DNA of 64,000 nucleotides from positions 62,001 through 126,000 of the forward strand of contig NZ_JACHCP010000001.1 of NCBI RefSeq assembly GCF_014207185.1, read 5' to 3'. Below are positions 2,971 to 35,721 of this stretch, piece by piece. Below the pieces are notes generated by a model. That model was not told the origin of the DNA. It saw nothing but the letters and a program-made list of their open reading frames with translations, and made no database searches. Position numbers and translations under genes: made by a program. The first letter of the stretch is position 1, and each line of letters starts with the position of its first letter. Source of the DNA: Rhodanobacter sp. A1T4. GTDB lineage: Bacteria > Pseudomonadota > Gammaproteobacteria > Xanthomonadales > Rhodanobacteraceae.

Positions 2971-4618
2971 GACCTTTGAACGGATGACCGAACCTGGTTA
3001 TCCAGTGGTGGCTCGAAGTGGCCGGCGATTGTCGCTGGTCTGGCTGGTGCCGCTGGTTGCCGCGCTGATCGGTCTGTCGATGCTGGTCCAGGCGTGGCTC
3101 TCGGCTGGCCCAGTCATCACCATCACGTTCCAGACTGCGGTGGGACTGGAAGTCGACAAGACTCCCGTCAAGTACAAGGACGTCACGGTCGGCACGGTGT
3201 CTTCGATTACTTTGAGCGACGATGGCTCGCAGGTGATCGCCACCGTTGCGCTGCTGAAGAGTGCCGAGAGTCTGGCTCGCGCAGATACGCGTTTCTGGGT
3301 GGTGCGCCCACGCATTTGCCTCAATGGTGTGTCGGGTATCGACACGCTGCTCTCGGGTGCCTACATCGGTGTGGACAAGGGCAAGTCCAGCCAGTCGAAC
3401 AAGGCATTTGCTGGCCTGGAAACACCGCCAACGGTCATCAACGGAGCACCCGGCAGAAGTTTTGTACTGCATACCGATGATCTGGGCTCGTTATACATCG
3501 GTTCGCCGGTCTATTACCGACGCATCCAGGTGGGACATGTGGCGTATTCCCAGCTTGATCCGGATGGGAAGCACGTCAGTGTGCAGATCTTCATCGATGC
3601 GCCGTATGACCGCTTTGTCACGGCTGGCACACGTTTCTGGAATGCGAGCGGGGTCGATGTTTCCCTCGACACCAAAGGACTCAAACTCAGTACACAGTCA
3701 CTGACCACCCTCATCGCTGGTGGCATCGCTTTTGCCACGCCGCCCGACGATGTGGGCGCTCCGGCCATCACGGCCTACGACTTGGCGAAGGATCAGCAAA
3801 GTGCGATGGCGCCGCCCGACGGACCGGCGCGGTATATCCAGCTGCGCTTCGAGAAATCGCTGCACGGCCTGTCGGTCGGCGCGTCGGTGGAGTTTTCCGG
3901 TTTGGATATCGGACGGGTGGTCGCGATCGATCTGGACTATGACCCGATCGGACATCGCTTTTTTTCCGTCGTCGGCATCGAGGTCTACGCCCAAAGAATG
4001 GGGAGCGTACTGAACAAGCTGCCAAAACCCGATGGCGACCCGCAACGACAAGCCGCCCAGTTTTTGCGAGGAATGGTCGAACACGGTCTGCGCGCGCAGG
4101 TACGTTCCGACAACCTGTTGACCGGACAACTCTACGTGTCGCTTGATTTCATGCCGAATGCCACGCCGGTCACATTCGACGTCGATGCACGCCCTCTCGC
4201 CGTGCCTACCGTGGATGGTGGCTTTGACCGGTTGCAGGAACAGGTCGCCTCCATCGTGGGCAAGATCGACAAAATGCCGCTCGAAGCGATCGGCAACAAT
4301 CTCAACACCACCCTGGTGGATCTGGATCAGACCCTCAAGCAGGTCAACGTCCAACTGCTGCCAGCGACAACACAGACTCTGCAGCAAGCCAGGCAAACGT
4401 TCGGTGTGGTGCAAGGCGTGCTGGCCAGCGATGCGCCGTTGCAACAGAACTTGGGCCAGACGCTGCAGGAGGTTCAACGAACGGCTCGTTCGCTGCGTGT
4501 GCTGACCGATCTGCTGAGCCGTCATCCCGAAGCCCTGCTGCGTGGCAGTCCAGATGACGCGCCACCGGTTACATCCGGCTCTCGCTCTGTCTCTGCACCA
4601 CAAGAGTTCCCGCGATGA
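2963..4618 (+). CDS. pqiB: PqiB, MCE-domain lipid-transport tunnel protein
   Basis: A 551-residue protein with one N-terminal membrane helix (about residues 20-42), three MCE domains (roughly 50-140, 165-265 and 290-400) and a C-terminal coiled-coil-like region rich in Gln and Leu (about 420-520). This is the architecture of E. coli PqiB, which stacks MCE rings and extends a coiled-coil channel across the periplasm. The length agrees with the family. It sits between pqiA and pqiC with overlapping reading frames on both sides, showing a single operon. Confidence 0.93.
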   Translation: MNETFERMTEPGYPVVARSGRRLSLVWLVPLVAALIGLSMLVQAWLSAGPVITITFQTAVGLEVDKTPVKYKDVTVGTVSSITLSDDGSQVIATVALLKSAESLARADTRFWVVRPRICLNGVSGIDTLLSGAYIGVDKGKSSQSNKAFAGLETPPTVINGAPGRSFVLHTDDLGSLYIGSPVYYRRIQVGHVAYSQLDPDGKHVSVQIFIDAPYDRFVTAGTRFWNASGVDVSLDTKGLKLSTQSLTTLIAGGIAFATPPDDVGAPAITAYDLAKDQQSAMAPPDGPARYIQLRFEKSLHGLSVGASVEFSGLDIGRVVAIDLDYDPIGHRFFSVVGIEVYAQRMGSVLNKLPKPDGDPQRQAAQFLRGMVEHGLRAQVRSDNLLTGQLYVSLDFMPNATPVTFDVDARPLAVPTVDGGFDRLQEQVASIVGKIDKMPLEAIGNNLNTTLVDLDQTLKQVNVQLLPATTQTLQQARQTFGVVQGVLASDAPLQQNLGQTLQEVQRTARSLRVLTDLLSRHPEALLRGSPDDAPPVTSGSRSVSAPQEFPR

Positions 4619-15319: not shown

Positions 15320-15520
15320 AATGCCGCTGGAGCTTGCCAGCGGAAGCAGCTCCGCCACCAAAGCAGCCACTGACCTTAGAGATGGGGAAAGGAGACTGCG
15401 CCATCAAAGTGCCGACAAAGCGACGTTCAATGCCATGACCATGGCCGTTTTGCCCCTCTCAGGTCCCGCTTGCCACATAGGCAACGTCCGTTGCCGCAGG
15501 CACGGCTACACTCGATCACC

Positions 15521-16636
15521 ATGAACGTGTTATCTCACCCATTGTCGGCAGGCGTCCACACCGACTACGGCGCGACGTTTCCTCCGAAGACCTTGGTCAC
15601 GTTTTGGGCGTTGTGGGCAGCATTCTGGCTGCTCATGATCGGTGTTTCCATCGAGGATCAGCTCCGTGATCCGCTCACCCGGTGGTGGGAGCCAGTCCTG
15701 TCGGAAGGGAGTTCGGCACTGGTTTCAACAGGATGGATGTGGCTTGCCGTCCGGGTTCGCGAGCGCTATGCGCCGTATCTGGACAAGCCCTTGATCTGGT
15801 TCGCTAGCTACCTGCATTGGTTGCCGTTGGTCTTCATCACGTGGATCACGGTGGTTTACTCGATACGGCATGGCGTCTATGCCGCCGTGGGCCGTATCTA
15901 CGAGCACCCAACCTGGGGCTTCGTCGTTGTGTACGAGAGCTTCAAACTGACGATTTTTACGGGACTGTGGCTCGGGATCCTGTTTGGTATCGATTCGTAT
16001 GGGCAGTGGCAACTCCAGCGGCACCGTTTGCTGCAAACGCAGAAGGCGCTGGCCCAGGCGCAGCTTGCACAGCTTCAGGGTCAGCTGCGGCCGCATTTTT
16101 TGTTCAATGCACTCAATACCGTTTCTGCCCTGATGCATACGGACGTAGCACGAGCCGACCGTTTGGTGGCAACGCTTGGCGATCTGCTGCGTATCAGTCT
16201 TCGGTCAAGTGAGAATGAGATGACGCCGCTCGCCGAAGAACTTCGCACGCTTGAGCTATACGCGGGCATCATGCACGAGCGGTTTCGGGATCGCGTGACG
16301 CTGAGCTGGCAGACCGATCAGACGCTCCTCGACATCCCCGTTCCGGCACTATTGCTGCAGCCCTTGCTTGAGAATGTGTTCAAACACGGTGTCGAGCCTA
16401 CGGTGACGCGCGTACGCATCATTATCAGCGTCCGACGCGAAAGCGGCTCGCTGGAAATCGTCGTGAGCAATTCCGGCTCCATGCTGGCACCGGAGCATCA
16501 TGACGGGATGGGGTTCCGCAACTGTCGGGAGCGGCTGAGCATCATCTACGGCGATGCGGCGTCCCTGCGGGTCCGTAACGAGGACGACGGCGTTGCCGCG
16601 CGAGTCTCCATACCGCTGACGGGCATCATTCAATGA
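15521..16636 (+). CDS. LytS/AlgZ-type sensor histidine kinase
   Basis: A 371-residue membrane kinase. Four hydrophobic segments fill residues about 25-160. A short coiled coil rich in Gln, Leu and Ala (165-188) leads to the His_kinase box LRPHFLFNALNTVSALMH with phospho-acceptor H192. The HATPase domain follows, with the N box LLENVFKHG and a GMGFRNCRERL glycine motif. The start at 15521 lies before the first helix. The stop overlaps the response-regulator start (ATGA), so the two form one unit. Confidence 0.9.
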   Translation: MNVLSHPLSAGVHTDYGATFPPKTLVTFWALWAAFWLLMIGVSIEDQLRDPLTRWWEPVLSEGSSALVSTGWMWLAVRVRERYAPYLDKPLIWFASYLHWLPLVFITWITVVYSIRHGVYAAVGRIYEHPTWGFVVVYESFKLTIFTGLWLGILFGIDSYGQWQLQRHRLLQTQKALAQAQLAQLQGQLRPHFLFNALNTVSALMHTDVARADRLVATLGDLLRISLRSSENEMTPLAEELRTLELYAGIMHERFRDRVTLSWQTDQTLLDIPVPALLLQPLLENVFKHGVEPTVTRVRIIISVRRESGSLEIVVSNSGSMLAPEHHDGMGFRNCRERLSIIYGDAASLRVRNEDDGVAARVSIPLTGIIQ

Positions 16637-17373
16637 TCCGCGTCGTCATCGCCGATGATGAGGCCCCGGCTCGCGAAAAGCTCGAACGTTGGCTGGTGGA
16701 GCAACCGGACGTGGACGTGGTTGGGGTGGTTGAGGATGGATTGTCTGCGGCGCAGTGTATCGAACAGCTCCGCCCGGACGTTGCCTTTCTTGACATACAA
16801 ATGCCTATGTTGTCGGGACTCCAGGTCGTGGGGCAGCTCGAGCTATCGAGCGCGCCACTGATCGTCTTCGTGACCGCATTCGACGAGCATGCGGTGAAGG
16901 CGTTTGATCTCAATGCGGTCGATTATCTCCTCAAGCCTTACGATCAGGATCGTTTCGCGCGCACCTTGCAGCGCGTCCGCGAACGGCTGCACGGCCATGA
17001 GTCCGGCGCTACAGCGGTGGCGATTGGACGAGCACGGGCTCCTTCTTGCGAGCGCTTGCTCGTGCCGGATCGCGAACGGCTACAGCTGATCGACGCTGCA
17101 TCCATCGAATGGCTAGAAGCCGACGACAACTACGTCCACGTGCACACACCTGCGCGCAGCTACCTGTTACGCAGGACACTGCAGGATCTGCTTTCCCAAT
17201 TGGGTGAACAGCGCTTCGTGCGGATTCACAAGTCGACAGCGGTGAACATCAACTCAATCGAATCACTCACCCCCCTCTTCAAGGGCGACTACGAAATCCA
17301 TCTGAACAACGGCCGCATTCTCCGGCTCAGCCGGCGGTATCGCGAAGCGTTATTCGTCCGCATGGGGCAGTAG
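16633..17373 (+). CDS. LytTR-family response regulator
   Basis: A 246-residue protein. The receiver domain (1-120) has the acidic pair D8/D9, phospho-acceptor D54 in AFLDIQMP, Thr81 and K101 in LLKPY. The LytTR DNA-binding domain fills about 138-246 (RIHKSTAVNINSIESLTPLF). It is translationally coupled to the kinase. The permease genes 218 bases downstream are the most obvious targets, as LytTR systems often control neighbouring transporters (inference). Confidence 0.92.
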   Translation: MIRVVIADDEAPAREKLERWLVEQPDVDVVGVVEDGLSAAQCIEQLRPDVAFLDIQMPMLSGLQVVGQLELSSAPLIVFVTAFDEHAVKAFDLNAVDYLLKPYDQDRFARTLQRVRERLHGHESGATAVAIGRARAPSCERLLVPDRERLQLIDAASIEWLEADDNYVHVHTPARSYLLRRTLQDLLSQLGEQRFVRIHKSTAVNINSIESLTPLFKGDYEIHLNNGRILRLSRRYREALFVRMGQ

Positions 17374-17590
17374 TTCCCCCTTGCCACGCCGAGCTCTCCA
17401 TTCACCCCAAATGTGCTGCCAGCTGGTTGCGGGTGGATCAAGCTTCTGCTTATCGCTGCGAGGCGAGAACTTGATGGCTGTTGCGAGCGTCCTGTGATGC
17501 GCGCCTTGCTGTTCCTGTCTGCGGTGATGGGAAGTGTGAGTTGTCCGTACGCTTATTTGTAGAAGCGGAAGTGAATGAAGGGGAAAAGGA

Positions 17591-18895
17591 ATGTTCGGCT
17601 ACTACGTTGACCTTGCCTTGCGTAGCCTCCGGCGTAACAAGGTACTCACCGCGCTGATGGTGCTGGCTATTGCGCTGGGTATCGGTGCCAGCATGACCAC
17701 GCTGACTGTATTGCACGTGCTGTCCGGTGATCCGTTGCCGGGGCGCAGCAGCGCGTTGTACGCGCCACAAGTTGACCCGCGCGATATGGGTAACTATCAA
17801 CCGCATGGCGAACCGCCGGATCGAGTTACCTGGATCGATGGCATGAACCTGTTGCAGGCGAAGAGGGCGAATCGCCAGGCGCTGATGACAGGCGGTTCGG
17901 TGGCTATCCAGCCAGCGCAGTCCGCACTCAATCCATTTTACGAGAGCGCGCGCTACATCACCGCCGATTTCTTTCCCATGTTCGGTGTGCCATTCCAGTA
18001 CGGCCATGCCTGGGGCGTGCCGGAGGATGCGGCTAGCGCAGCCGTGGTAGTGATCAGCAGCAAGCTCAATGACAAGCTGTTCGGTGGTCGCGACAGCAGC
18101 GGACGCATGCTGCGCGTGGAGGGTCATGCCCTGCGCATCATCGGCGTGCTGGGTGACTGGCGGCCGAACCCGCATTTCTACGATCTCAACCTGAAGAGTT
18201 ACGGTGCGGACGAAGGAATCTACCTGCCGTTGTCCACCTCGCAGGATCTGCATCTGGCGCATCTCGGCGGCGCCGATTGTTGGGGCAATGGTGGCGACGG
18301 CGCCACTCCCTCACATACGGCACCTTGCGTGTGGCTGCAATTCTGGGTGCAGTTGAATACGCCGGCCCAGGCCGACGCGTACCGGCAGTTTCTGATCCAT
18401 TACTCGCAGGAGCAGCAGTCGCTGGGCCGCTTTCCGCGCTCGCCCAATGTACGCCTGCGCAATCTGATGCAGTGGCTGGACTACGAGCAGGTCGTGCCCG
18501 GCGACGTGCAATTGCAGAACTGGCTGGCGCTGGGTTTCCTGCTCGTGTGTCTGGTCAATACGGTAGGCCTGATGCTGGCCAAGTTCCTGCGTCGCTCCGT
18601 CGAACTGGGCGTGCGCCGTGCGCTGGGCGCATCGCGGCGTGCACTGTTCATGCAACTGCTGGTGGAGTCCGCCGTGATCGGGCTTGCGGGTGGCCTTGGC
18701 GGCCTGCTTCTGGCGTATCTCGGGCTGTGGCTGGTGCGACAGCAGCCGGCGAATTACGCGCCGCTGGCGCATCTCGATGGCGCGATGCTGATGATGACGC
18801 TCGTGCTGGCGGTGGTTGCCAGTCTGCTGGCCGGCGCGCTGCCGGCCTGGCGCGCATGCCAGATCACTCCCGCCCGTCAACTGAGGAGCCATTGA
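17591..18895 (+). CDS. MacB/FtsX-like ABC transporter permease, first
   Basis: A 434-residue permease: one N-terminal helix, a periplasmic MacB_PCD domain (about 50-300) and three C-terminal helices of the FtsX domain, with the conserved ELGVRRALGASR coupling segment before the last pair. A strong ribosome site (GGGGAAAAGGA) precedes the ATG. It is followed after one base by a second permease of the same type. No ATP-binding subunit or membrane-fusion protein lies nearby, so partners must be encoded elsewhere. Confidence 0.87.
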   Translation: MFGYYVDLALRSLRRNKVLTALMVLAIALGIGASMTTLTVLHVLSGDPLPGRSSALYAPQVDPRDMGNYQPHGEPPDRVTWIDGMNLLQAKRANRQALMTGGSVAIQPAQSALNPFYESARYITADFFPMFGVPFQYGHAWGVPEDAASAAVVVISSKLNDKLFGGRDSSGRMLRVEGHALRIIGVLGDWRPNPHFYDLNLKSYGADEGIYLPLSTSQDLHLAHLGGADCWGNGGDGATPSHTAPCVWLQFWVQLNTPAQADAYRQFLIHYSQEQQSLGRFPRSPNVRLRNLMQWLDYEQVVPGDVQLQNWLALGFLLVCLVNTVGLMLAKFLRRSVELGVRRALGASRRALFMQLLVESAVIGLAGGLGGLLLAYLGLWLVRQQPANYAPLAHLDGAMLMMTLVLAVVASLLAGALPAWRACQITPARQLRSH

Positions 18896-18896
18896 T

Positions 18897-20129
18897 ATGG
18901 ATATCCGCCCGATTCTGTCTACCCTGCACCGGCACAAGATCACTTCGTTGCTGCTGATCTTGCAGATTGCGCTGACGTGCGCCATCGTGTGCAACGCGGT
19001 GTTTTTGATCCATCAACGCCTGCAACGTATGGACATTCCAAGCGGCGTCGCCGACCACGAACTGCTGCAGATCAAGTTTGCGTACATCGGCGATCGACCG
19101 GATGCCTATGCGCAGGCGCAAACCGATCTGGCGACACTGCGGCAGATCGCTGGGGTGCAGGCGGTAGCTCTGGTAAACCAGCTGCCGCTGAGTGGTTATT
19201 CCATGTCCAACAGCGGCATCAAGCTGCACCCTCAACAGCAGCAGACATCGCTTGAGGTGGCAAGCTACTACGGCCAGAACCTACTGGCGACGCTGGGTCT
19301 ACGGCTGATTTCGGGGCGCGATTTTCAGCCCGATGAGCTGGTCGACCTTAAAACCGCGCTGCCCGCGTTGCACAGCGACGATATGAAAAATCTGCCGCAC
19401 ACCGTGATCATCGATCAGGCAGTCGCCACACGCCTGTGGCCAGACCAGAACGCGCTGGGCAAGATGATCTACTTCGGCAACGATATACCGATGCAGGTGG
19501 TCGGTGTGAGCTCGCCGCTGGCACGGCCGGACTCGCTGCAGATGGGTGCCCAGAACAGCATCGTGTTTCCGATACGGCTGACCGCGACGGAGGGTGGAAG
19601 CTATGTGATTCGCACCACCTCGGGGGATCGCGAGCAGGTGTTGAAATCCGCGCTGGCTGCGCTCAACCGCCTCGATCCCAACCGCATCGTGCTGGAGCAG
19701 CGCACCTATGATGAACTACGCCATGACTACTTTCAGGACGACCGCGCCATGGCCGGCATGCTGGTGGGCGTTATCGCGGCGCTGCTGATCGTCACCGCGC
19801 TGGGCATTGCCGGACTGGCTAGCTTCTGGGTCGGGCAGCGCCGCCGCACCATCGGCGTGCGCCGCGCACTCGGTGCCACCCGCGGCAACATCCTGCATTA
19901 CTTCCAGACGGAGAACTTCCTGCTGGCCACGATCGGCATCGCGTTTGGCATGGTGCTGGCCTACGGCATCAACCTGTTGCTGATGCTGCATTACGAATTG
20001 CCGCGGCTGCCTGCGATCTATTTCCCGGTCGGCGCGATCGCGCTGTGGTTGATCGGCCAGCTCGCCGTGTTGGGGCCGGCGCTGCGCGCCGCCGCCGTGC
20101 CGCCGGTCGTGGCGACGAGGAGCGTTTGA
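18897..20129 (+). CDS. MacB/FtsX-like ABC transporter permease, second
   Basis: A 410-residue paralogue of the preceding gene: N-terminal helix (SLLLILQIALTCAIVCNAVF), periplasmic MacB_PCD domain, and C-terminal FtsX part with RRTIGVRRALGATRGNIL. It is separated from its partner by one base. The two probably form the heterodimeric membrane part of an exporter of the mechanotransmission type, whose ATPase is not in this window. Confidence 0.87.
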   Translation: MDIRPILSTLHRHKITSLLLILQIALTCAIVCNAVFLIHQRLQRMDIPSGVADHELLQIKFAYIGDRPDAYAQAQTDLATLRQIAGVQAVALVNQLPLSGYSMSNSGIKLHPQQQQTSLEVASYYGQNLLATLGLRLISGRDFQPDELVDLKTALPALHSDDMKNLPHTVIIDQAVATRLWPDQNALGKMIYFGNDIPMQVVGVSSPLARPDSLQMGAQNSIVFPIRLTATEGGSYVIRTTSGDREQVLKSALAALNRLDPNRIVLEQRTYDELRHDYFQDDRAMAGMLVGVIAALLIVTALGIAGLASFWVGQRRRTIGVRRALGATRGNILHYFQTENFLLATIGIAFGMVLAYGINLLLMLHYELPRLPAIYFPVGAIALWLIGQLAVLGPALRAAAVPPVVATRSV

Positions 20130-22475: not shown

Positions 22476-23828
22476 TCATTTCGTCTCCGACCGAGTCTGC
22501 TCGACAGGAGCAGCTTGGGTCGTGCGAGCCGTCAGTCCAAGCCGGCTCAGCCAGTCGATCATGATCGAGGGATAACCTGGTACGAAGCGGGGAGGATCCA
22601 ACGCATCGCTCTCGTAGCCGGTCTTCGACAGCATTAGTAGATGGTCCGCTCTTGGAAAAACATGCACAGTGAAGTCGCGCATGCCTGATCTGGCAAAGGC
22701 CGCACGAAACCCGCGCTGCCCGTCCGCTACATCGACGTTGCGATCCAGCGCGCCATACAACGCGAGCGTAGGTGTCGTGACATGTTCAAGCGTGGATCGC
22801 GGATCGTAAATCAATGAAGCACGCAATGCCGTCAACATAGCGGGGGCGGGAGGCGTTGTGATGCCCGGCGGGATGCGCATCAACGGAAACCACGGCTGTG
22901 TGCGAGCTTCCTTCAACGCTGTGCCCGCTGATGCCCAGTCACTGTTGGTTTCCAAATTGCGGAACAAGCCCCTCTCGAACCGCATCGCATCGTCGATCTG
23001 CTGCGGCGAAAAACGACCGCTATGGAGCAGATCCTGTCTGACCTCGTAGGACACGTTGTCGATGATCGTGCCGCTCGAACTGCTCTTCAGGATCACGAAA
23101 GCCAAGGGGTAATGGTGGGCGATGATCGGAGCCACCCAACCGCCGTTGCTGGGTCCCCATGCACCGACCCGCGCAAAATCCACGGCGGTGTCGCCGACCA
23201 GCGACTTCAGGGCTGCTTCGACATCCTCAGCTTTGTCAGCCGGTCCGGTAAACCGCCAGTTGCCGCTGGAAATACCCGTTCCCCGCTGGTCGAAGGTCAA
23301 CACATCCAAGCCGTTTGCCGCGAAATACGGAATCAGGAAACCCATGTCGCGGGTTGAGTCATCGGCCCCTTCAAGCAGCACGATCAAGGGTCGATGAGTC
23401 GCATCACGGATATGCCAGAGCGAAAAGCCAAAGCGCCCTTGGCGGTCGCCGATTGCATGCCTGTCCTCGATCACCGCGACCTCTGGCCGCCGCAAGTCAA
23501 AGTCCAGATAAGGTTTTTCCTGCGTGCGGTACCGATTGCCTTCCATCTTCACCAAATTGCCGATGCGATGTGTTGCCACGTCGAAGTATTCGAGCTGAGG
23601 CTTGGTCGGCGGCTCCGCGGTACGGCCCACGTAGACCACGCCCTGTGCCGTGGCGTAGCGCCCGTTCGTAGGCCAGTCCGAGTCGATAGGCGCGGCTTGC
23701 GGCGGTTTTCCCTGAGCCGGCGTGGCCGCTGCGCTGGATGCGCCAGCGCGCGCCGTGGAAGAGAAGGCATTGGCCGCGGCCGTTCCGACAACCAACGCCA
23801 GTATGAAAAGAAGACGTGTGCGGAACAT
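22476..23828 (-). CDS. Secreted alpha/beta hydrolase
   Basis: About 450 residues. A signal peptide (MFRTRLLFILALVVGTAAAN) is followed by an Ala/Pro-rich linker and an alpha/beta-hydrolase domain with nucleophile elbow GPSNGG, acid ALYGALDRN and histidine FPRADHLLM. An ATG at 23828 gives a clean signal peptide; a TTG six bases earlier is better placed after GGGGAG. The enzyme is probably an esterase or peptidase-like hydrolase acting in the periplasm; the substrate is unknown. Confidence 0.82.
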   Translation of the reverse strand: MFRTRLLFILALVVGTAAANAFSSTARAGASSAAATPAQGKPPQAAPIDSDWPTNGRYATAQGVVYVGRTAEPPTKPQLEYFDVATHRIGNLVKMEGNRYRTQEKPYLDFDLRRPEVAVIEDRHAIGDRQGRFGFSLWHIRDATHRPLIVLLEGADDSTRDMGFLIPYFAANGLDVLTFDQRGTGISSGNWRFTGPADKAEDVEAALKSLVGDTAVDFARVGAWGPSNGGWVAPIIAHHYPLAFVILKSSSSGTIIDNVSYEVRQDLLHSGRFSPQQIDDAMRFERGLFRNLETNSDWASAGTALKEARTQPWFPLMRIPPGITTPPAPAMLTALRASLIYDPRSTLEHVTTPTLALYGALDRNVDVADGQRGFRAAFARSGMRDFTVHVFPRADHLLMLSKTGYESDALDPPRFVPGYPSIMIDWLSRLGLTARTTQAAPVEQTRSETK

Positions 23829-24031
23829 AGTCAAGGAAACTCCCCTGGTACGGATATCTGGCAACCACTGAGCTCAACGAGCCAGACGAAAGTGGGCAAT
23901 GGCTGCAGCCGTGGACGCAAACGAACACGGCGCCGTTGTATCGAAGTGCAGCAAGCCATGTGCCAGCGGGGGATTCGCGACTCAAGCAAGTCAATTCAAG
24001 TACTTGATGGCCAGCTACGGTCAGGTGTCAG

Positions 24032-24043
24032 TGTCCGCGGACA
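24032..24043. promoter_or_regulatory. TGTCCG-CGGACA palindrome, possible enhancer-binding-protein site
   Basis: TGTCCGCGGACA is a perfect 12-base palindrome in the 23829-24323 gap, where no intact gene is seen. Further TGTCCG or GTCCGG copies lie at about 24055 and 24088. It resembles the site at 34784, but I find no good sigma-54 promoter nearby. It may be a relic. Confidence 0.3.
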
Positions 24044-34772: not shown

Positions 34773-34815
34773 CTGTCCGTGCCCTGTCCGGACAGTAGTG
34801 GCGCTGTCCGCGGGC
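34773..34815. promoter_or_regulatory. TGTCCG cluster, candidate upstream activator sites
   Basis: CTGTCCGGACAG at 34784-34795 is a perfect 12-base palindrome; single CTGTCCG copies flank it at about 34773 and 34804. The group lies 70-110 bases before a sigma-54 promoter, the usual place for an enhancer-binding protein. Confidence 0.5.
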
Positions 34816-34882
34816 AATCGCTCTTGCCGAATGGCAATGGATGAAATGGCTTGGGAATGCGGCTTTCAAGAGATTCGAGCCT

Positions 34883-34898
34883 TTGGCACGAGCTTTGC
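34883..34898 (+). promoter_or_regulatory. Sigma-54 (RpoN) promoter
   Basis: TTGGCACGAGCTTTGC matches the consensus TTGGCACG-N4-TTGC, with the invariant GG and GC ten bases apart. Transcription would start at about 34910, 34 bases before the small gene at 34944. Confidence 0.75.
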
Positions 34899-34943
34899 CA
34901 TATGTCTCATTGAAAGCTTCCTACCTACTCACGGAGAACCGCC

Positions 34944-35099
34944 ATGAAATTCGAGACCTTGATGCTGCAGAGTCTTTTCGCCGCCTGCCTGCTGATCTGC
35001 CTGCTGACCTTGGGTGCCATGCTCACTTCGCAAATAACCGTGCCGAGCGTTGTGGTCAGCCATGCTCCCGTTGCGGCCATCGAAAGCTTGCTGAGCTGA
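34944..35099 (+). CDS. 51-residue membrane or secreted peptide under sigma-54 control
   Basis: A short gene: MKFETLMLQS, then one hydrophobic helix (LFAACLLICLLTLGAMLTSQ), then ITVPSVVVSH and a short Ala-rich end. GGAG lies eight bases before the ATG. A sigma-54 promoter and TGTCCG sites precede it in standard spacing. The helix could be a membrane anchor or a signal sequence that releases a peptide of about 22 residues. I do not know the family. The regulator gene (an enhancer-binding protein) is not in this window. A small signalling or stress peptide is a reasonable guess only. Confidence 0.65.
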   Translation: MKFETLMLQSLFAACLLICLLTLGAMLTSQITVPSVVVSHAPVAAIESLLS

Positions 35100-35193: not shown

Positions 35194-35721
35194 TTGGCTG
35201 TGAATCAATTCAGTAAAGCCGCATTGGCTGCCTATTTTCTTGCTCAACTTGCGTGGGGGATAACGCCGGCCTATGCCCAGTCGGAAAGTGATGACGCGGC
35301 ACTGACACGCACTATCACTGCGCTCGATGCGAAGGTTTTCGATGCATACAACAGCTGCGATCTGAAGGCGTTTGGCAGCTACTTCTCGCCAACGGTCGAG
35401 TTTTATCACGACAAAGGCGGCGTGACCTATGACCGCGAAACGGTTGTCATGAACACCCGCAAGTACATCTGCGACAAAGTGCACCGGGAGTTGATTCAAG
35501 GGTCTCTCAAAGTCTATCCAGTCAAGGACTATGGTGCCATTGAGGAGGGCGAACACATTTTCTGTGAGATAAAAACAGGTGCATGCGAGGGCGCCGCCAA
35601 GTTTCTGATGATTTGGCAGAACACGGATGGAAAATGGTTGATGACGCGAGTCATCAGCTATGGACATCGGGCCTTGTTGCCGGCTGAAAAGGAAGCGCTC
35701 AAATTGCAAAGTCATCCCTGA
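35194..35721 (+). CDS. Secreted NTF2-like (SnoaL/DUF4440-type) protein
   Basis: A 175-residue protein with a signal peptide (cleavage after PAYA) and an NTF2-like cone fold: helix TITALDAKVFDAYNSCDLKA, strand VEFYHDKGGVTYDR, and closing strands ending WLMTRVISYGHR. It begins with TTG, eight bases after AAGGAG. Such domains act as enzymes or ligand binders; the specific role is unknown. It follows the sigma-54 peptide gene by 94 bases but may have its own promoter. Confidence 0.75.
   Translation: MAVNQFSKAALAAYFLAQLAWGITPAYAQSESDDAALTRTITALDAKVFDAYNSCDLKAFGSYFSPTVEFYHDKGGVTYDRETVVMNTRKYICDKVHRELIQGSLKVYPVKDYGAIEEGEHIFCEIKTGACEGAAKFLMIWQNTDGKWLMTRVISYGHRALLPAEKEALKLQSHP

Follow-up and report, generated by a model that had tools for sequence, protein, structure and literature searches.

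One-helix regulators, sigma-54 regulons and MacAB-type exporters are all known kinds of system. MgrB is a small one-helix membrane protein that has cysteines and acts as a feedback inhibitor of the PhoQ kinase, and peptides of the TisB/Hok type are self-acting and depolarise the membrane. The PrsK-PrsR/PEP-CTERM regulons combine an NtrC-type regulator and a kinase with several -24/-12 promoters, and PilR of Pseudomonas binds TGTC-containing sites. The 49-aa AcrZ is described as a single-helix belt on AcrB and the 31-aa MgtS as acting on PitA and MgtA (PMC10710835); MgrB is treated in PMC11539335. A further paper deals with sigma-54 and the bacterial exterior (PMC3162934), and the words HlyD, MacA and efflux are absent from its main text. 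Among the matches listed in the open-access literature, no title or abstract beginning belonged to a paper on the system presented here; most subscription journals and preprints lie outside that literature.

We present here a micropeptide gene from a stretch of 64,000 nucleotides (the window) of Rhodanobacter sp. A1T4, contig NZ_JACHCP010000001.1, positions 62,001 to 126,000 of the forward strand. The gene lies at 34944-35099 (+) and consists of a 51-codon frame (34944-35096) and a stop (35097-35099), with a ribosome-binding site, GGAGA, at 34933-34937 (+) that is conserved in the window's class of relatives. An earlier note, made from the sequence alone, had proposed such a micro-gene and ribosome site, and both were found at these positions. 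The single hydrophobic helix that it described agrees with hydropathy alone (best 19-residue Kyte-Doolittle mean of 2.29, at residues 11-29). From the frame, its relatives, selection and hydropathy, the 51-residue one-helix peptide looks like a real, conserved gene, not a singleton but a member of a multi-copy family. The window peptide and members of 67 and 31 aa matched 0 families in Pfam and NCBIfam, and no AcrZ or MgrB family model in these collections was matched by these three.

The proposal of a sigma-54-controlled membrane micropeptide held in the comparative data, which show apparent purifying selection on the gene as well as its recurrence. A protein search found relatives in 39 of the 45 same-genus genomes (its own included), at 88 places with 1 to 4 per genome, and in 35 of the 38 genomes with completeness of 90% or more and contamination of 5% or less. 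From the fetched loci, 86 peptides were taken with their promoters, 1 of 87 rows (L106, minus strand) having been dropped as a spurious frame. The 86 are 28 to 73 aa long, the shortest forms of the family having 27 residues (the helix alone) and the longest 73 (a Cys-loop tail added); this is within the size of small membrane proteins (under about 75 aa), and four examples examined by hydropathy have one hydrophobic helix. Nine of the 86 are helix-only forms of 28 to 31 aa with little besides the helix; 28, the window's included, have 40 to 59 aa and no tail Cys (0/28); and 49 have at least 60 aa, with exactly two tail Cys in 48 of them (e.g., SCALPPDGVVC). The N-terminal part is conserved and the C-terminal part variable across the family: E4, L11 and M26 are kept in 86/86, L8 and F12 in 85/86 each, C15 in 83/86, G24 in 82/86 and C19 in 81/86. 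Since ten Dyella-labelled loci have copies of only 28 aa, the helix and short N-terminus are probably the functional core. Tandem micropeptide genes stand behind one promoter in some relatives (L225, L228, L311; G023:C8:594826 and 595077), and one genome, G231, has ten peptide matches. A comparison of neighbours was dominated by the false frames to which GC-rich DNA gives rise; for the 51-aa class it pointed to no clear partner, and for the Cys-tail class, with the same noise, it showed one same-strand cluster that recurs downstream in 24 loci.

Drift of the 51 codons among relatives, raised in the earlier note as a way for its proposal to fail, was examined by reading frame and codon position. 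For the 25-codon core of 17 window-class members, pN/pS is 0.39 in the true frame compared with 0.58 in the +1 frame and 1.62 in the other, and the tails of nine 51-aa members give 0.50 compared with 1.18 and 1.09; these values are descriptive, the pairs behind them not being independent. The second codon position is the least variable in the 17 cores (352 differences compared with 757 and 853). The other 68 cores give 0.57 compared with 0.73 and 1.69. The +1-frame value for the window class is also below 1, so the ratio alone is not strong; we read the data together as showing probable purifying selection on the 51-codon gene, and random drift of the frame as not borne out. They also bear on a different account, in which the frame is a by-product and the promoter serves the DUF4440 gene at 35194-35721. 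The start of that gene is 95 bases beyond the peptide, on the same strand, and has its own AAGGAG site, as this account would have it. Against it, relatives keep the peptide frame together with this promoter design, the true frame has the lowest pN/pS, and the neighbours differ in relatives, although that comparison is noisy. We regard the account as very improbable and, from the comparative data, largely refuted. The DUF4440 gene (+) may be cotranscribed with the peptide in this species.

The predicted sigma-54 -24/-12 promoter, TTGGCACGAGCTTTGC, is located at 34883-34898 (+), as judged from the sequence and from relatives' promoters. Its TGGCAC-N5-TTGC has the GG/GC spacing of the -24/-12 type, and the upstream sites stand at a distance (about 60 to 150 bases) that suits sigma-54 activators. 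The palindrome CTGTCCGGACAG at 34784-34795, a predicted activator site, occurs at one place in the 5.08-Mb genome. It is flanked by CTGTCCG at 34773-34779 (+), a half-site of a kind similarly placed in many relatives, and by a second CTGTCCG at 34804-34810; promoter, palindrome and flanking copies are all where the earlier note had placed them. A degenerate copy, TGTCCGCGGGCA, of the regulon palindrome TGTCCGCGGACA follows at 34805-34816. Of the 17 promoters in the window's class, 12 were displayed, and all 12 contain TGTCCGGAC.

The sigma-54 claim of the earlier note stands in a changed form. Allowing up to one mismatch, TGGCACG-N4-TTGC has 95 and 96 sites genome-wide compared with 79 and 71 in the reversed control. 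With 191 real and 150 control sites, the -24/-12 match on its own is near background and was dropped as evidence; because that site alone is not significant, it is the TGTCCG repeats that carry the evidence. A sigma-54-like site with at least two TGTCCG/CGGACA at -125 to -40 occurs twice in the window (34884, plus strand, and 23965, minus strand), compared with a mean of 0.013 and a maximum of 1 when 64 kb were simulated 150 times with a first-order Markov model. Chance does not account for the combination.

Two promoter designs can be told apart between the activator sites and the promoter, where sigma-54 promoters often, though not always, have an IHF site. Most Cys-tail promoters have an IHF-like site there: WATCAANNNNTTR or its reverse, with up to one mismatch, is found in 38 of 48, with 1.7 expected from shuffles, and lies at -29 from TGGC in 34 of those 38. 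The 52-aa/other class has it in 2 of 12 promoters, the window's class in 0 of 17 and the helix-only class in 0 of 9. In the last two classes it is replaced by an element of the type GAAATGGC-N8-GCGGCTTTC, defined by the consensus of 17 window-class and 9 helix-only promoters and located at 34843-34867 (+) in the window. The element is an imperfect inverted repeat conserved in both the 51-aa and the helix-only classes, and it may be the site of a second factor.

A wider regulon with TGTCCG sites, which the earlier note had suspected, is borne out by the recurrence of this design. The pattern GTCCGCGGAC-N50-80-TGGC-N7-TTGC has 137 exact sites in 43 of the 45 same-genus genomes and 0 in the reversed control. 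Across the order, the same gapped pattern is present in 90 of 100 genomes of the family compared with 9 of 248 outside, and the exact promoter pattern is absent from 10 of the 100; the reversed control matches 4 of 348 genomes, none of them in the family. The window promoter is not among the 137 because its third site reads GTCCGCGGGC. Micropeptides follow 85 of these sites, a MacA/HlyD-like adaptor gene follows 42 (26 and 15 assigned in two sets, and one, where a run of N intervenes, from the first frame beyond the N) and other genes follow 10. The promoter-to-peptide distance is 44 to 61 bases in 84 of the 85 assigned pairs; in the 85th (promoter G023:C8:594691), two peptides stand in tandem, the first 43 bases and the second 294 bases away, and the script had paired the promoter with the second. 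Conversely, 85 of the 88 peptide places go with the exact pattern, and the three without one of their own are the window's, the second tandem copy and G018:C225. The ten other genes are five alpha/beta hydrolases identified by script, a sixth hydrolase-like gene and a MacB-type permease identified by reading, and three others. Hydrolases behind the same promoter were seen at G000:C7:227630 (L123), L130, L137, L195 (by reading) and L197. At L132 (about 3970-4140; G015:C11:279969-280139), a sigma-54/TGTCCG promoter that faces the other way overlaps the adaptor promoter and uses the same palindrome, and the divergent gene would encode a predicted 640-aa protein that is C13-type peptidase-like by reading only.

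In the window's genome, the regulon comprises the window peptide, two further peptides (on C3 and C10), the adaptor gene at C1:399023 and two hydrolases. One of the hydrolases is the second regulon gene of the window, at 22476-23828 (-), an alpha/beta hydrolase (S33/S9-like; Pfam Hydrolase_4, 1.8e-12). Its start codon is uncertain, the first listed start being 23864, and its N-terminus suggests that it is probably secreted. The sigma-54 promoter, TGGCACATGGCTTGC, recognized by the motif and its combination with repeats, is at 23951-23965 (-), and the core of the activator palindrome, an exact GTCCGCGGAC likewise combined with repeats, is at 24033-24042 (-). Gene and regulon appear well supported computationally, the micropeptides sharing one switch-like promoter design with a large membrane exporter and with the two-component system encoded beside it.

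The exporter genes themselves form a cluster. At L192, one unbroken strand carries the adaptor, an ABC ATPase, about ten permease-like genes (called by reading, one frame being doubtful), a response regulator and a kinase, and the cluster at L191 is similar. Domain searches in the window's genome covered the adaptor and two of the permeases: the adaptor is above the TIGR01730 cut-off and the permeases are MacB_PCD/FtsX, while the ABC ATPase of the cluster was identified by reading. The response regulator of the window's genome, at C1:430012, has a REC-AAA-Fis architecture (PF00072, PF00158, PF02954) and a loop that reads GAYTGA (GAFTGA-type), as in NtrC-family response regulators, and is followed by a HAMP-type kinase. 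By reading, the start of the kinase has a pair of hydrophobic stretches separated by no more than about 40 residues. Orthologues of the regulator are present in 43 of the 45 same-genus genomes, the two without it being 86% and 79% complete, and of 58 genomes selected from the order, 49 have an orthologue or close relative. Some genomes also have another response regulator, with 40 to 48% identity. Relative to the 42 adaptor promoters, the regulator is 6.8 to 31 kb downstream on the same strand in 29, at 220 kb in 1 and on another contig in 11, while in 1 genome it was not matched. The peptide genes are all distant from the regulator, the nearest pair on one contig being about 158 kb apart. Within the window, 15470-20129 (+) contains two signalling-type genes followed by a permease-like pair that resembles the exporter's by reading; the window scan for a sigma-54-like site with repeats found no regulon promoter there.

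The motif follows the exporter beyond the genus. The adaptor start could be read in 16 of 20 loci (L273, L274, L277 and L284 did not match the adaptor motif), giving 16 promoters outside the genus, 6 from other genera of the family and 10 from other families. These have a mean of 3.7 TGTCCG/CGGACA per 200 bp compared with 0.12 in 2941 background tiles, and L275 scores 0 in this count, its sites being 212 to 245 bases ahead of the start that was taken. For 489 other frames, the upstream count is 0.17 hexamers per 200 bases. Twelve of the 16 promoters show an exact TGGC/T-N6-8-[TC]TGC, and 6 of the 16 come from family members without a detected peptide. Because the TGTCCG repeats mark the adaptor promoter across the order, also where no peptide was detected, the linked response regulator is the best candidate activator. 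The earlier note had said that the regulator is not in the window, and the best candidate, at G000:C1:430012, is indeed outside.

Another sigma-54 regulator, PilR-, NtrC- or FleQ-like by reading, or one of the others, could be the activator instead, with the exporter-linked one acting elsewhere. The genome offers seven strong PF00158 (sigma-54 activator domain) matches from which to choose, and the TGTC-containing sites of PilR in Pseudomonas would fit. Set against this are the tracking of the adaptor/response-regulator cluster by the repeats across families and the absence of the regulator from only 2 of 45 genomes, both incomplete. In a PilR-like locus of 12 kb (L145), five hexamers are scattered and the one sigma-54-like match is without an upstream repeat, and a PilR-like locus as the source of the motif was not supported at that one locus. 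We consider a different activator unlikely. The simplest reading of the comparisons is that TGTCCGCGGACA would be the site of the C1:430012 regulator and the exporter its ancient target, and, equally as the simplest reading, that the peptides would have been recruited into this regulon later.

The peptides are much narrower in distribution. A profile of 24 peptides matches 83 of 348 genomes of the order, 82 of the 100 in the window's family compared with 1 of the 248 outside (E = 8e-4, not trusted), and a wider sample of the class, 274 genomes, gave no peptide match except in the window's own genome. A scan of named records, which rests on a single 51-aa query and favours its own class, gave 58 loci, with Dyella, Luteibacter and Frateuria included. 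One locus (L294), in a metagenome-assembled record labelled Eremiobacteraeota, has a 53-aa member with the same promoter design and speaks against restriction to the family unless its contig is misbinned. The peptides thus look nearly confined to Rhodanobacteraceae and look like an innovation of this family. No peptide was detected in 18 of the 100 family genomes, and the regulator was present in 12 of the 12 tested among these, so that the exporter system can do without the peptides.

On this basis we propose, as a reading that we hold to be somewhat probable, that the micropeptide gene belongs to an RpoN regulon activated by the exporter-linked regulator, in which the peptides would adjust a membrane partner. 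The role of the regulator is suggested by linkage and motif tracking; the partner and action of the peptide are put forward more tentatively. A cell-envelope signal would reach the HAMP-type kinase, and the NtrC-type regulator (REC-AAA+-Fis) would bind TGTCCG/CGGACA palindromes roughly 60 to 115 bases upstream and activate the -24/-12 promoters. As the sigma-54 promoters fire, exporter, regulator, kinase and peptides would rise together; one promoter heads the exporter cluster, so that exporter, regulator and kinase could be induced together, and unlinked promoters would each drive a one-helix inner-membrane micropeptide. The conserved helix (E4, L8, L11, F12, C15, C19, G24, M26) would bind a membrane partner of the regulon, either an exporter permease or the sensor kinase, adjusting its activity or feeding back on signalling, and the variable tails might give paralogues different specificities. 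Conservation of the helix, in a family whose tail can be missing, makes action through a membrane protein of this regulon probable, and AcrZ and MgtS are precedents for it. The six other strong sigma-54 activator matches in the window's genome count against the proposal, as do the distance of the peptide genes from the regulator, the family genomes in which peptides or the exact promoter pattern were not detected, the +1-frame pN/pS below 1, the absence of the IHF-like site from the window's class and the degenerate third activator site of the window.

Two other uses of the peptides were weighed. They might be exported precursors, signals or antimicrobials secreted by the coregulated exporter, with the leader conserved and the tail as cargo. 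The adaptor has a nearly full-length match to the model of DarC, the adaptor for darobactin export, below its cut-off (77.8 bits, cut-off 450); the conserved N-terminal part and variable C-terminal part have the layout of leader and cargo, and two Cys in the tail mark 48 of the 49 members of at least 60 aa. However, members of 27 to 31 aa end just past the helix and leave no cargo, no peptidase domain was found in the adaptor and two permeases scanned (the ATPase being outside the scan), and the 51-aa class has no recognised conserved neighbour in the noisy comparison. This makes secretion an improbable role. The peptides might also be self-acting ones of the TisB/Hok type that depolarise the membrane under the inducing stress. 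They are small, hydrophobic and multi-copy, mostly with one promoter each, and helix-only forms exist; yet the retention of E4 (86/86), C15 (83/86) and G24 (82/86) exceeds what hydrophobicity needs, and the promoter design is common to the exporter and hydrolases. We think such direct depolarisation quite unlikely.

Within the proposal of an adjusted membrane partner, a more specific and doubtful possibility is that these interchangeable one-helix peptides, a lineage-specific set, serve as an in-membrane ligand or brake of the exporter-coupled sensor kinase. If that were true, a kinase would switch on, via sigma-54, both tailed and tail-less helices that bind the kinase itself or the permeases, and one ancient detoxification system would be tuned by copying and varying micropeptides rather than sensors. 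The work defines a micropeptide family that has no Pfam or NCBIfam model and has a clear regulon. For a response regulator whose orthologues occur throughout the order, it proposes the DNA motif TGTCCGCGGACA together with a set of targets. As the regulon is clear and there are candidates for both the regulator and the partner system, the function of this small membrane protein is directly testable.

Among described systems, AcrZ, the partner of AcrAB-TolC in Escherichia coli, is alike in being a one-helix small membrane protein of similar length, and the window peptide is coregulated with an exporter in which a periplasmic adaptor is likewise present. It differs in that the present family has no Pfam/NCBIfam match, is multi-copy and under sigma-54 control, goes with permeases of the MacB/FtsX type rather than RND, and has a partner that is only proposed. 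MgrB is likewise a one-helix protein made by a two-component regulon, and the tail Cys pair of the long members recalls its cysteines; here there is no family match, and the window's size class lacks tail Cys (28/28 members of 40 to 59 aa). The PrsK-PrsR/PEP-CTERM systems resemble the regulon in their NtrC-type response regulator, kinase and several -24/-12 promoters. A PEP-CTERM/PrsR regulon was considered and rejected, the regulator scoring 338.7 with a cut-off of 502.6 (TIGR02915), and exosortase PF09721 was not found in the window's genome. The exporter is like MacAB and DarBCD-type systems in its MacA-like adaptor, MacB_PCD/FtsX permeases and ABC ATPase, and unlike them in having about ten permease-like genes per cluster and in falling below the MacA, MacB and DarC equivalog cut-offs. 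The new part is the combination of these known kinds of system in a multi-copy, tail-variable peptide family.
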